Made by a program: the position numbers and the translations under genes. Below, piece after piece: positions 24,243 to 49,303 of a DNA stretch of 64,000 bases. The DNA is from Hyphomicrobium methylovorum. GTDB taxonomy: Bacteria; Pseudomonadota; Alphaproteobacteria; Rhizobiales; Hyphomicrobiaceae. The notes beneath the pieces are model-generated. The model was not told the DNA's origin. It saw only the letters and a list, made by a program, of their open reading frames with translations, and ran no database searches. Every line of letters begins with the position of its first letter. Position 1 is the first letter of the stretch. The stretch lies in contig NZ_QHJE01000001.1 of the NCBI RefSeq assembly GCF_013626205.1, positions 3,328,501 through 3,392,500 on the forward strand, read 5' to 3'.

Positions 24243-25193
24243 TTAATGGGGCGCTGCGGGCGGCGGACCGGCGCGGCGATAGTGAAAAATCGTTTCGGCA
24301 AGGCCTCCGAGCGCGAGCAACAAGCCGACATGCGGGATGATGAGCGCGCCGGTATAAAGCGCGGTGAGAATGAAGATCTGCCACGGCGAATTGCGCGTGA
24401 GTACGTGGACGACACCGAGCCCAACGAGCGCGAACGCGAGAAGGAAAGGTGCTGCAATTCCTCCTGCGAGCAGACCGGGCAATCCGCCGGTAAAGCTGAC
24501 AGCGGTTGCGACGAGCAGAACGAGGGTCGCGCTGGGTGGCATCGAGAAATAGGCGAGGTCGGGCCACGGGCGTTTCAGGCGTCCCGACGCGAGCGTAATG
24601 CGCCCCGCGAGCCAGAGATTGAGCAGCGTCGTCGACATCGCAAGTAGACCCAGCGCCCAAGGCAGTGTGGACAGCGTGGTTTGCGTGATCTCGTCGATTT
24701 GCTGGCTCGTGACCTCCGGCGCACCCGGCAGGCGCGCGAGATCCGATTTGACGAACGATTCAACGACGGTGCGGAGCATCTTACTCAGCGTGTCGACGTC
24801 ACCGCCCATCAGGATGATGGCGAGAGATGCGAAAACACCGGCGAAGGCGGCCGCGACGACGACAAGGCGGCCGATTGGATACCATTCGCGATCCTCATCC
24901 TCGCCACGGCTCAACTGCGCGAGTCGCGTCAGGATCACGGCAGGGATCGCGGTGCTGATAGCGTAGACTTCAGCGGCGAGGGGATTGGCGATCAGAAAAA
25001 TCGTGATCGTGGCGGTGACGGCGGCGATCGTTGCGGCAACCGTTCCGAGGCCGAGGCCCGCGAGGTAAAGCGAGAGCGGCGTCAACAGGAAGAGCAAGAC
25101 GCGGAACAGCATCGCGCCCGCCGTCGCCGAAGCGAAGACGACTGCGGACATGATGCCCGCGGCAATTGCTAAAAGGATAACGTTCGTCGGCAT
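24243..25193 (-). CDS. DUF2232 integral membrane protein
   Basis: This protein of about 316 residues is almost wholly hydrophobic, with around eight to ten membrane segments. It belongs to the DUF2232/YybS-like group that lies between rpsR and rplI in many alphaproteobacteria. I start at MPTNVILLAIAAG (25193), since the longer frame to 25286 adds a basic, unconserved stretch that runs into the palindromic element upstream. Function is unknown; the S-component-like fold of YybS relatives is only a suggestion. Confidence 0.85.
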   Translation of the reverse strand: MPTNVILLAIAAGIMSAVVFASATAGAMLFRVLLFLLTPLSLYLAGLGLGTVAATIAAVTATITIFLIANPLAAEVYAISTAIPAVILTRLAQLSRGEDEDREWYPIGRLVVVAAAFAGVFASLAIILMGGDVDTLSKMLRTVVESFVKSDLARLPGAPEVTSQQIDEITQTTLSTLPWALGLLAMSTTLLNLWLAGRITLASGRLKRPWPDLAYFSMPPSATLVLLVATAVSFTGGLPGLLAGGIAAPFLLAFALVGLGVVHVLTRNSPWQIFILTALYTGALIIPHVGLLLALGGLAETIFHYRRAGPPPAAPH

Positions 25194-25258
25194 CTCTCGC
25201 TGTCCCGCCTTGGCGGTTAGAGCCGGATCCGGTTTCCCGTTCCGACCCAACTTTCGTT

Positions 25259-25323
25259 GCACCCGGCGGCGCAATCTTGATTGCACCCGGCGACTCCCCT
25301 TCGGGGAGCCGGCCGCCGGGTGC
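25259..25323 (-). repeat. 41-bp palindromic element (25283-25323) plus a duplicated arm (25259-25270)
   Basis: On the minus strand the 41-bp element has a perfect 9-bp basal stem, an asymmetric internal loop GGCCGG/TC, and a 7-bp upper stem (5' CTCCCC inside, with a flanking C-G pair) capped by GAA. A second right arm at 25259-25270 gives a rival 12-bp basal stem with 25312-25323, so two hairpins exclude each other. It lies between rpsR and the DUF2232 gene. The same core occurs twice in mazG. Confidence 0.85.
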
Positions 25324-37020: not shown

Positions 37021-38340
37021 CTAGCGGTACTCGATGTGTGCGTCTTCCCGCAGATCCTTGAGATAGCGCTGGGCCATCACTTCGAATTCTTTCTGCTTCA
37101 GCTCGCCTTCGACTTTGGTGCGCGCATCCGCATCGCCCGCGACGGCATCGCGGCCGCACACGACCCAAAGCTGGACCTCGCCTTCCTCGACGCTCGGCGG
37201 CAGCATTTCGCCATCGTGTGCGTTGAGCAGGAGGGTGCGTGTGGGTTCGGGGATCGACGATGTGCGGCGCTTGCCGAGCTGTTCGAACTTCGCGCCCGCG
37301 ACGCCGGTTGCGGCGGTTGCCGTCGATTTGCAATCTGTGAAGCGCGAGCGGATTTTTTCCGCGTCCTGCAGGCGCTGCGCGACGCCGTGTTCTTCCATCT
37401 TCTTCGGCAGCGTGATGCTGATACGCTGAATCTGCAACTCAGTATCTTGCTGTGCGGCGCCGCTCGCGCTGGCGACCATCTTGTCGACGTCTCTATTATT
37501 GATATTGATCAGCGGCCCGAAGCGGCGGCGGACGACTTCGTTCCAGGATAGCGCCGCACGGATGCGGTTCTTCATCGGATCGATGGACCCGCCAAGCTGC
37601 TGCGCAAACTGCTCCATCGTCATCTTATTGCGCTGGGCGATACCGGTGATGACGCGGTCCACCTCGGCATCTTCAATCGCAACGCTCTGCTTCTTAGCTT
37701 CCTGCAGTTTCAGCTTTTCGTCGATCAGCTCTTCGAGAGCCTGTTTCTTCACCGCAGGCAACGCCGTCTTGCGCGCGTTTTCGAGTGCCTGGCGCTGCAT
37801 GCTCATGCCGAATTCTTTTTTGCGCCGTTCGAAGATGGCGATGATCTCATCGCGCGACTTGCCCTGATTGGCTTCGACGACTTCGTTGAGAATGGCCTTC
37901 AGGCGCTCAGATGTTTTGGGATTCTTGACGATCGCTTCGAAGTTCGACTTCGCCTGCTGCTGCACGCTGGCGCCGCCGAGCATCATGGCGCGGCGGTCGA
38001 CTTCGAAACCGGTTACCGGCTCATCGTTGACGAGGGCGGTGATGGCGTGATCACCGGACATGGAGTCCATGCCAGCGTCACGACTTGCGGTCTCTGTGCC
38101 TTTCTTAGCTTTGGATGCCTTGCCAGCTTTCTTGTCTTTCGGCGTCGCTTCCATGTCCTTCGTGTCGCCGCCGACAGAGGGGCGAAGAAACGAGCCCGAG
38201 CCATCACCCGTGACGGCGACGGTGCCGCCTTGAGCCGATACCGGCGCGGACGCCAGCATCAGGGCGGACGGCAGCGCGGCTGCCAATGCGAGCAGGCGCA
38301 CGGAGCGCAAAATGGTCGAGTGTGTGTACAGGTTCGGCAT
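37021..38340 (-). CDS. surA: SurA-type periplasmic chaperone / peptidylprolyl isomerase
   Basis: SurA assists folding of outer-membrane proteins. The 439-residue precursor has a signal peptide (to about residue 36, PVSAQ), then a ~65-residue linker rich in Lys/Gly/Asp, then a SurA N-terminal domain (ITALVNDEPVTGFEVDRRAMML). The parvulin region is weakly conserved (QRISITLPKKMEEHGVAQRLQDAEKIRSRF), and I see no clear complete active site, so isomerase activity is uncertain. Position next to lptD supports the SurA assignment. Confidence 0.85.
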   Translation of the reverse strand: MPNLYTHSTILRSVRLLALAAALPSALMLASAPVSAQGGTVAVTGDGSGSFLRPSVGGDTKDMEATPKDKKAGKASKAKKGTETASRDAGMDSMSGDHAITALVNDEPVTGFEVDRRAMMLGGASVQQQAKSNFEAIVKNPKTSERLKAILNEVVEANQGKSRDEIIAIFERRKKEFGMSMQRQALENARKTALPAVKKQALEELIDEKLKLQEAKKQSVAIEDAEVDRVITGIAQRNKMTMEQFAQQLGGSIDPMKNRIRAALSWNEVVRRRFGPLININNRDVDKMVASASGAAQQDTELQIQRISITLPKKMEEHGVAQRLQDAEKIRSRFTDCKSTATAATGVAGAKFEQLGKRRTSSIPEPTRTLLLNAHDGEMLPPSVEEGEVQLWVVCGRDAVAGDADARTKVEGELKQKEFEVMAQRYLKDLREDAHIEYR

Positions 38341-48385: not shown

Positions 48386-49303
48386 ATGGCAGGCGGAATG
48401 AAACCTTCCCGGGATATTGGTCGTCTCATCGAGATCATGGCGGCGCTGAGAACGCCCGGCACAGGTTGCCCATGGGATCTCGATCAGACGTTCGCGACCA
48501 TCGCGCCTTACACCATCGAGGAAGCCTACGAGGTTGCCGACGCCATCGAACGCGACGACCGCGATGACCTCAAAGACGAGCTGGGCGATCTCCTGCTGCA
48601 GGTCGTCTATCACGCGCGGCTCGCGGAAGAAGAAGGCGCGTTTCAATTCGGGGACGTGGTCGAAGCGATCACCCGGAAGATGATCCGTCGGCATCCGCAC
48701 GTCTTCGAGAATGCGGCGCGCGATCAAGCGTCCATCAAACGGACCTGGAGCGCAATCAAGGCCGAGGAGCGCGCCGAGCGGGCCGCTGCGCGCGGACACG
48801 ATCCGGCAAAGGAGCGGGCGACCGGTCTCTTGGGCGACATTCCCGTGACGCTTCCAGCGTTCGCACGCGCGATCAAGTTGCAGGACAAAGCCGCAAAGAC
48901 CGGGTTCGATTGGCCCAGCATCGGGCCGGTGTTCGACAAGCTGAAAGAAGAGATCGCAGAGCTTGAAGAAGAGATGGTTTTGTCTGCGCCTTCCGGCCGG
49001 CACCCCGTAGGGGAGTCGGTAGGCGCTGCGTCAGGCGGCCGGCTCGCGGAACGCGAGTCGCCTGACGCAATCAAAGAAGAGTTCGGAGATATGCTGTTCG
49101 TGATGGCGAACATCGCGCGGCATCTTGAAATTGATCCCGAGGCGGCTCTTCGGTCCGCCAACCAGAAATTCGTGCGCCGCTTCGCACATATCGAGGCGCG
49201 GCTGGCGGAAAGCGGCCGGACGCCGGAGCAATCGACGCTCGCGGAAATGGATGCGTTCTGGGACGAAGCAAAAGCGATCGACAAGCTGGCGAAGTCGCGC
49301 TGA
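48386..49303 (+). CDS. mazG: Nucleoside triphosphate pyrophosphohydrolase MazG with a 28-residue insertion
   Basis: MazG hydrolyses NTPs to NMP and PPi and cleans or adjusts nucleotide pools. The 305-residue protein has two MazG domains: GTGCPWDLDQTFATIAPYTIEEAYE...DELGDLLLQVV near the N-terminus, and E188-E189-x2-E192 ... E232-x2-D235 in the C-terminal one. Residues 201-228 (Ser/Gly/Arg-rich, APSGRHPVGE...) are encoded entirely by two adjacent 41-bp palindromic elements, and they fall in the loop between the two metal-binding helices. Without them the length would match E. coli MazG more closely. The start at 48386 fits homologues. It is convergent with the monooxygenase gene. Confidence 0.93.
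   Translation: MAGGMKPSRDIGRLIEIMAALRTPGTGCPWDLDQTFATIAPYTIEEAYEVADAIERDDRDDLKDELGDLLLQVVYHARLAEEEGAFQFGDVVEAITRKMIRRHPHVFENAARDQASIKRTWSAIKAEERAERAAARGHDPAKERATGLLGDIPVTLPAFARAIKLQDKAAKTGFDWPSIGPVFDKLKEEIAELEEEMVLSAPSGRHPVGESVGAASGGRLAERESPDAIKEEFGDMLFVMANIARHLEIDPEAALRSANQKFVRRFAHIEARLAESGRTPEQSTLAEMDAFWDEAKAIDKLAKSR
48986..49026 (+). repeat. 41-bp palindromic element, first copy in mazG
   Basis: This copy has the shared core CGGCCGGC ... GAGTCG with a GTA apical loop. The basal stem is GCGCCT with AGGCGC, one T-T mismatch, then CC with GG; the upper stem is CCCC with GGGG. It lies on the coding strand and starts exactly at codon 201. Confidence 0.85.
49027..49069 (+). repeat. 41-bp palindromic element, second copy in mazG (with one extra pair)
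   Basis: It directly abuts the first copy in the same orientation. The basal stem is a perfect 10 bp, TGCGTCAGGC with GCCTGACGCA. The upper stem is CTCGCG with CGCGAG around a GAA loop. The core CGGCCGGCTC ... GAGTCG is the same as in the rpsR copy, while the stem pairs differ by compensating changes. Together the two mazG copies span 84 bp. Confidence 0.88.

Follow-up and report, generated by a model that had tools for sequence, protein, structure and literature searches.

A family of DNA hairpins with paired, freely varying arms and mostly one-strand orientation in Hyphomicrobium

The rpsR and mazG Loci

Hyphomicrobium is a bacterium of soil and water. The stretch analysed here (the window) comprises 64,000 nucleotides of Hyphomicrobium methylovorum, at positions 3,328,501–3,392,500 of a 3.44-Mb contig (C1). 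It contains three copies of a 41-bp hairpin element. Copy A lies between rpsR and a membrane protein gene; copies B and C lie inside mazG. The features of the two loci are as follows:

24243–25193, minus strand: DUF2232 membrane protein gene (PF09991), downstream of copy A
25251–25272, minus strand: probable remnant of a second copy, with right-arm-like sequence and tail, recognised by eye only
25274–25282, minus strand: 3′ tail of copy A, AATCAAGAT; the family consensus tail is AANCAAAAA
25283–25323, minus strand: copy A, 41-bp hairpin element, intergenic, beginning 9 nt past the rpsR stop codon
25333–25587, minus strand: rpsR, ribosomal protein S18 (PF01084), upstream of copy A
48386–49303, plus strand: mazG, nucleotide pyrophosphohydrolase (PF03819), start from ab initio gene finding
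48986–49026, plus strand: copy B, 41-bp hairpin element within mazG, with one A/A mismatch in the inner stem
49028–49068, plus strand: copy C, 41-bp hairpin element within mazG, one base past copy B
49069–49078, plus strand: 3′ tail of copy C, AATCAAAGAA

Re-reading of the sequence confirmed the coordinates and strands of the three copies. CGGCCGGC (element positions 9–16) and GAGTCG (28–33) are unchanged in all of them, and the stem positions named in the original prediction do vary as compensating pairs. The asymmetric GGCCGG/UC internal loop described there has to be corrected: copies A and C show a one-sided 4-nt bulge within GGCCGG and fold into 10 outer pairs, the bulge, 7 inner pairs and a 3-nt loop. 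The fold of copy B, with its A/A mismatch, departs somewhat from this. A pattern search of the window with up to three mismatches gave nine matches, as against 6.59 expected by chance; the matches with zero mismatches are copies A, B and C only. A weak covariance-model match at 37808–37853 (E 0.95, 10.4 bits) was taken as chance.

Copy Number and Distribution

A covariance model of the element was built on 24 copies. In the genome containing the window it gave at least 46 hits at E ≤ 0.1; the number is a lower bound, as 150 of the 2352 first-look candidates were scored and copy B, though included in the model, is absent among the hits. On contig C1, 43 of these 46 hits lie on the minus strand and three on the plus strand. 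The proposed hairpin family thus extends genome-wide, the count being neither limited to three copies nor free of an excess over chance. An unselected 160-kb sample of the same genome contained one core match.

The pattern of the element was found in 28 of 60 genomes, namely 21/22 of the genus, 6/14 from elsewhere in the family and 1/24 from elsewhere in the order. The single genome outside the family has two pattern matches and one control match, and the one genus genome with no match is an 84% complete assembly. At E ≤ 1e-4, the covariance model matched 30 of 59 family genomes, in 13 of 22 genera. Presence is patchy: eight genomes of one other genus carry 0, 0, 0, 1, 4, 4, 80 and 81 copies. 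Two relatives with no model hits had no core matches in the 190 and 200 kb sampled. The 81 named element-bearing stretches come from Hyphomicrobium, Hyphomicrobiaceae and loosely named Rhizobiales, alphaproteobacterial or proteobacterial bins. On a contig named H. facile, four positions of the element agree with those in G001, a genome assigned to the same genus as that of the window. The hairpin pattern was also seen in 44 stretches of viral contigs, often several times per contig; these stretches may be proviral or gene-transfer-agent regions.

Pairing of the Arms

Structure is kept while sequence varies, as had been claimed from the three copies; the hairpins form a multi-copy family with paired, changing arms. 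Among the 24 copies, both sides change in 8 of the 10 outer pairs, and 88.7% of cells are paired as against 71.0% in shuffles; no shuffle of 500 attained the observed values. Pairing was further assessed in a core-only set (n = 153), whose copies were picked by the core, excluding those fetched with fixed-loop patterns or with the model. At least eight of nine arm pairs are Watson–Crick in 124 of the 153 copies, as against a mean of 11.1 and a maximum of 23 copies in 500 rounds of shuffled right arms. There are 70 distinct left arms in the set, and five copies have other core lengths. A chance origin of the family is rejected by the shuffles, the 46 model hits and the arm pairing of the core-only set.

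Pairing can also be followed at orthologous sites. Thirty orthologous pairs of lone copies were compared, with flanks 81.9% identical on average and several pairs belonging to a common locus; a copy was left out if another lay within 200 bases of it, and a pair if its two flanks both exceeded 98% identity. Among the pair positions, 78 differ in a compensated way and 42 on one side, while 208 are unchanged and 2 lack pairing in both copies. Some orthologous sites have similar arms and an inner stem swapped as a block; gene conversion may contribute part of the inner-stem covariation. In one subfamily, two of the inner-pair positions carry G/A and A/G instead (39 and 38 copies).

Compensated changes would arise without selection if the palindromes were kept by template-switch correction (quasi-palindrome repair) and had no mobility now. 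Such correction, however, leaves the fixed unpaired bulge, the GNA cap and the tail unexplained, as it does the near-identical copies at several sites, and this origin is hardly credible.

DNA Signature of the Hairpin

The loop was left free in the pattern used for the core-only set. There, the 3-nt loop is GNA in 127 of 137 cases and the 4-nt loop is GNNA in 11 of 11; in a set that includes stretches fetched with loop-fixing patterns, GNA accounts for 288 of 306 loops. According to the text of PMC4686876, DNA mini-hairpins with a GNA or GNNA loop are extraordinarily stable when they have two or more G-C pairs. G-T and A-C mismatches are equally frequent (12 vs. 12 in the core-only set and 24 vs. 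24 in a larger set), which, small as the numbers are, is not what a selected RNA fold would predict. Of 239 complete copies folded with DNA parameters, 235 reach a lower energy on the element strand than on the complementary one. The RNA notation in which the element had been written is therefore not favoured; loops, mismatches and folding energies lean towards a DNA hairpin.

Genomic Placement

Positions relative to genes were assigned to the 46 hits by ab initio gene finding, with tandem copies counted singly. In the window's genome 42 of the 46 are intergenic: 25 lie between converging genes, 11 between codirectional genes (8 sense, 3 antisense) and 6 between diverging genes. The other four fall inside predicted genes: mazG contains one, a weakly scoring frame two and a 2964-bp frame one.

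This placement bears on the possibility that the hairpin is a transcribed RNA element, acting as an mRNA 3′-end stabiliser, a terminator or a protein-binding hairpin. Most copies are indeed located past gene ends, and copy A follows rpsR by 9 nt, where other species have a different hairpin. However, the antisense copies next to codirectional genes do not suit such a role, the loops are of the DNA-stable GNA type, and G-U is no commoner than A-C, although numbers are small. The hairpin also lacks the T-run that would follow it in an intrinsic terminator, its tail being A-rich; read on the other strand, the T-rich stretch precedes the hairpin. A search of the window with the Rfam 15 covariance models at gathering scores gave no matches. 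Overall, an RNA element is decidedly improbable.

The mazG reading frame continues through copies B and C, which lie in a linker late in the MazG protein; this protein has two MazG domain stretches. The gene is stop-free in 21 of 22 loci, the 22nd (in G009) being one where the element only was matched; mazG is thus a gene kept open around an in-frame hairpin repeat, as in the Rickettsia palindromic elements (RPEs). The core occurs in 9 of 20 mazG linkers compared, in either orientation. Two mazG loci also have another, distinct insert nearer the start of the gene, and the frame continues through that one as well.

Downstream of rpsR, a comparison of 17 species by eye found one to three copies, some of them degenerate, in six; some of the remaining species have a different hairpin or repeat instead. 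At four of the rpsR loci another palindromic repeat, of the CCTCTCCCC...GGGGAGAGG type, stands in the hairpin's place. The site therefore seems open to several repeat families.

In four other species, a phage-like cluster holds 9 to 11 copies within 8 to 10 kb. In G008, this cluster includes terminase, portal, prohead protease, capsid, connector and tail proteins by Pfam; judged by gene order, it is presumably a gene transfer agent. Copies in the phage-like clusters have mixed orientation, and some are inside the terminase and portal genes. The capsid protein of the G008 cluster has no match in the window's genome and a distant match only in G003. Its absence from the former indicates that the hairpin family does not need the cluster. 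The region from ssb to past uvrA (genes named by eye) is copy-rich in G000, G007, G008 and G019, and has several copies in G018.

Relation to Known Repeat Families

The element had been likened to REP elements, which RAYT transposases can spread, and to RPEs. The likeness partly stands: copies are intergenic, as in REPs, and occur inside reading frames, as in RPEs. The RAYT link is not supported. Y1_Tnp (PF01797) is missing from the window's genome; one of the 22 genus genomes has it, as do three of 15 from elsewhere in the family, so that 4 of the 37 genomes searched have a Y1 or RAYT gene. Five Y1 loci of about 3.3 kb each contain no match to the core pattern. In the flank columns of 265 complete copies, neither a GTAG nor a CGTC tag borders the hairpin. 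The family is accordingly described as REP/RPE-like and is not filed as REP.

Hairpins of GTAG-tagged REPs and REPINs probably move as single-stranded DNA. They share gene-end placement with the present family, which differs in having no GTAG tag and in the near absence of Y1/RAYT from the genus. Integron attC sites offer another possible likeness: a folded single strand is read by its structure, the letters of the stem varying and the unpaired bases staying fixed. Unlike attC sites, the copies of the family are dispersed around the chromosome.

Closest among the described classes are the CGTC-tagged REPs, which, according to the text of Di Nocera et al. 2013 (PMC3733652), are found mostly in alphaproteobacteria and have no dedicated transposase known. 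Both are short hairpins, often between converging genes and sometimes inside genes. Compared by text description, the CGTC REPs have a CGTC tag, a 4–5 nt loop and a CCA tail; the family does not show this combination, having no CGTC tag, a length of 41 bp with a bulge, a GNA cap, an A-rich tail and free arms. Hyphomicrobium, GGCCGG and GAGTCG appear nowhere in the main text of that paper. RPEs are described there as hairpin repeats inserted in frame in likely still working genes; the present family, likened to them by description and not by sequence, has another host group and is mostly intergenic. No named REP class was matched, the CGTC REPs being compared by text description only, and a search of open-access papers gave no description of such a hairpin family.

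The elements might still be a REP family moved by a RAYT that has since been lost or is supplied in trans from elsewhere. Their size, hairpin, 3′-end placement and intragenic copies are as given for REPs in the text of PMC3733652, and Y1 is present in 3 of 8 element-bearing genomes of other genera and in none of seven element-free ones. This is nonetheless quite improbable: besides the missing GTAG or CGTC tag, the rarity of Y1 (4/37) and the lack of the core at any of the five Y1 loci, three genomes of 80 to 85 copies have no Y1.

The Repeat Unit and Its Proposed Mobility

Conservation extends beyond the stem: among the 265 complete copies, a C before the hairpin (with a weak second position) and the A-rich tail AANCAAAAA after it are conserved. 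In a near-identical subfamily of the window's genome, 5 of 6 complete copies have the same arms at different sites, which indicates that the arms travel with the unit; derivation of the arms from the target site is for the same reason unlikely. About 10 copies lack the left arm and begin at GGCCGG behind the tail of an upstream copy. A clean empty site with target duplication, of the kind expected for a MITE, was not seen, the rpsR and mazG sites being old or mixed, and no mobilising gene for the family was found in this analysis.

The best explanation, to which we assign a probability of about 0.58, is that the family consists of short mobile elements, which would spread as folded single-stranded DNA with the help of a trans-acting mobiliser. 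Mobility as such is very probable; the patchy presence, the subfamily arms at different sites and the variable occupancy downstream of rpsR all point to it. The mobile unit would be the 41-bp stem–loop with the C before it and the A-rich tail after it. The mobiliser, a putative enzyme that is probably no RAYT, would recognise the GGCCGG bulge, GNA cap and tail of just one of the two strands; with reading confined to these unpaired parts, the arms would be free to change letters as long as pairing is kept. Copies would persist where they do least harm, past gene ends and above all between converging genes, and some would persist in frame where a protein linker tolerates them, as in MazG. Both the movement as single-stranded DNA and the enzyme are inferred parts of this model.

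One-Strand Orientation

In six genomes with long contigs, most copies share one absolute strand. Isolated sites number, plus to minus, 1/26 in the window's genome (G000), 33/1 in G019, 2/17 in G007, 2/16 in G018 and 5/19 in G008, with 1, 0, 1, 1 and 2 mixed sites, respectively; the raw count for G003 is 2 plus and 36 minus. In clusters the two strands are represented more evenly (10 and 14 in G008, for instance). Fragmented assemblies are often nearer even (33 and 20 in G011; 27 and 22 in G012), as expected from random contig orientation; others are fragmented and uneven (6 and 33 in G017; 12 and 45 in G020). The six genomes are not independent, as elements are shared by descent.

In all six, dnaA is on the strand opposite most copies (located by Pfam in G000, G003, G007 and G019; recognised by eye from the start of the protein in G008 and G018). 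Between dnaA and the window, G000 has 14 minus and 2 plus copies; elsewhere it has 29 minus and 1 plus. The bias is thus present in both arms, with the terminus placed by skew only, and, as it does not flip between them, a replichore-linked orientation is rejected on that placement. Orientation set by neighbouring genes is unlikely, since 25 of the 42 intergenic copies are in a symmetric converging context. One-strand orientation is not obviously explained by known repeat families, and it does not follow from the mobility model.

It would suit a hairpin with a host function, such as an old chromosome-protein site or a start of single-strand synthesis selected in place, the one orientation being kept because some process circles the chromosome one way. 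The one-strand orientation in both arms, the pairing preserved at orthologous sites and the fixed bulge and tail agree with this; persistence at orthologous sites would also fit it. Presence is, however, patchy between and within genera, and the pattern is missing in one of the 22 genus genomes (84% complete). Tandem and 5′-truncated copies, and copies inside genes and phage-like clusters, form a selfish pattern. A host function is rather unlikely.

GC Skew and the Direction of Replication

The main chromosome of a bacterium is usually regarded as symmetric about its origin and terminus, and any orientation bias is then expected to flip from one arm to the other. Skew was measured at fourfold sites with the effect of gene strand removed, in 7 to 21 stretches per genome, with arm limits chosen from skew and gene positions; the split of G000 at 1.65 Mb was fixed before dnaA was located at 1.92 Mb. 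The strand effects in the two arms are +0.118/+0.019 in G003, +0.189/+0.055 in G007, +0.166/+0.047 in G000 and −0.003/−0.101 in G019, whose assembly is flipped. The skew is thus lopsided in four of four genomes tested: one arm is strongly skewed, and the other has a skew that is close to zero or does not change sign. Outside the arm limits, one stretch of G000 has −0.049 and two of G019 have −0.098 and −0.149. Escherichia coli K-12, sampled in the same way, gave +0.058 and −0.026, with a net 0.016 whose interval includes zero.

Two relatives with no model hits were also measured. In G088 the effect is +0.172 and positive in 18 of 19 measurable stretches; in G063 it is +0.082 overall, with strong positive, near-zero and negative parts, the negative stretches lying at 2.4 and 3.0 Mb. 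The element is unlikely to be the cause of the lopsided skew, since the copy-free G088 is strongly lopsided and G063 partly so.

The text of PMC7858055 reports that one-way replication was shown for Pseudoalteromonas chromids and that a skew survey predicted it for 77 of 16,103 large replicons, Alphaproteobacteria among them; its main text makes no mention of Hyphomicrobium. In the budding Hyphomonas neptunium, skew and dnaA gave no clear origin, as stated in the text of PMC6650430. The lopsided skew found here fits a largely one-way process. It may tentatively be suggested that some process runs over the chromosomes of Hyphomicrobiaceae in a single absolute direction, the simplest candidate being replication that leaves the origin largely one way, and that the hairpins trace it by being laid down on one strand all round the circle; this remains doubtful. 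Copies are one-sided in the weak-skew arm too, and the relation of dnaA to the G-rich strand differs in G088, both of which count against one-way replication; inversions could flatten the skew of one arm.

Significance

The family provides hundreds of natural DNA hairpins that keep their structure while their letters vary freely, and such a set is useful for finding the protein that reads them. In several species, one absolute orientation is mostly kept over an entire chromosome; taken with the lopsided skew, this points to a process acting in one direction.
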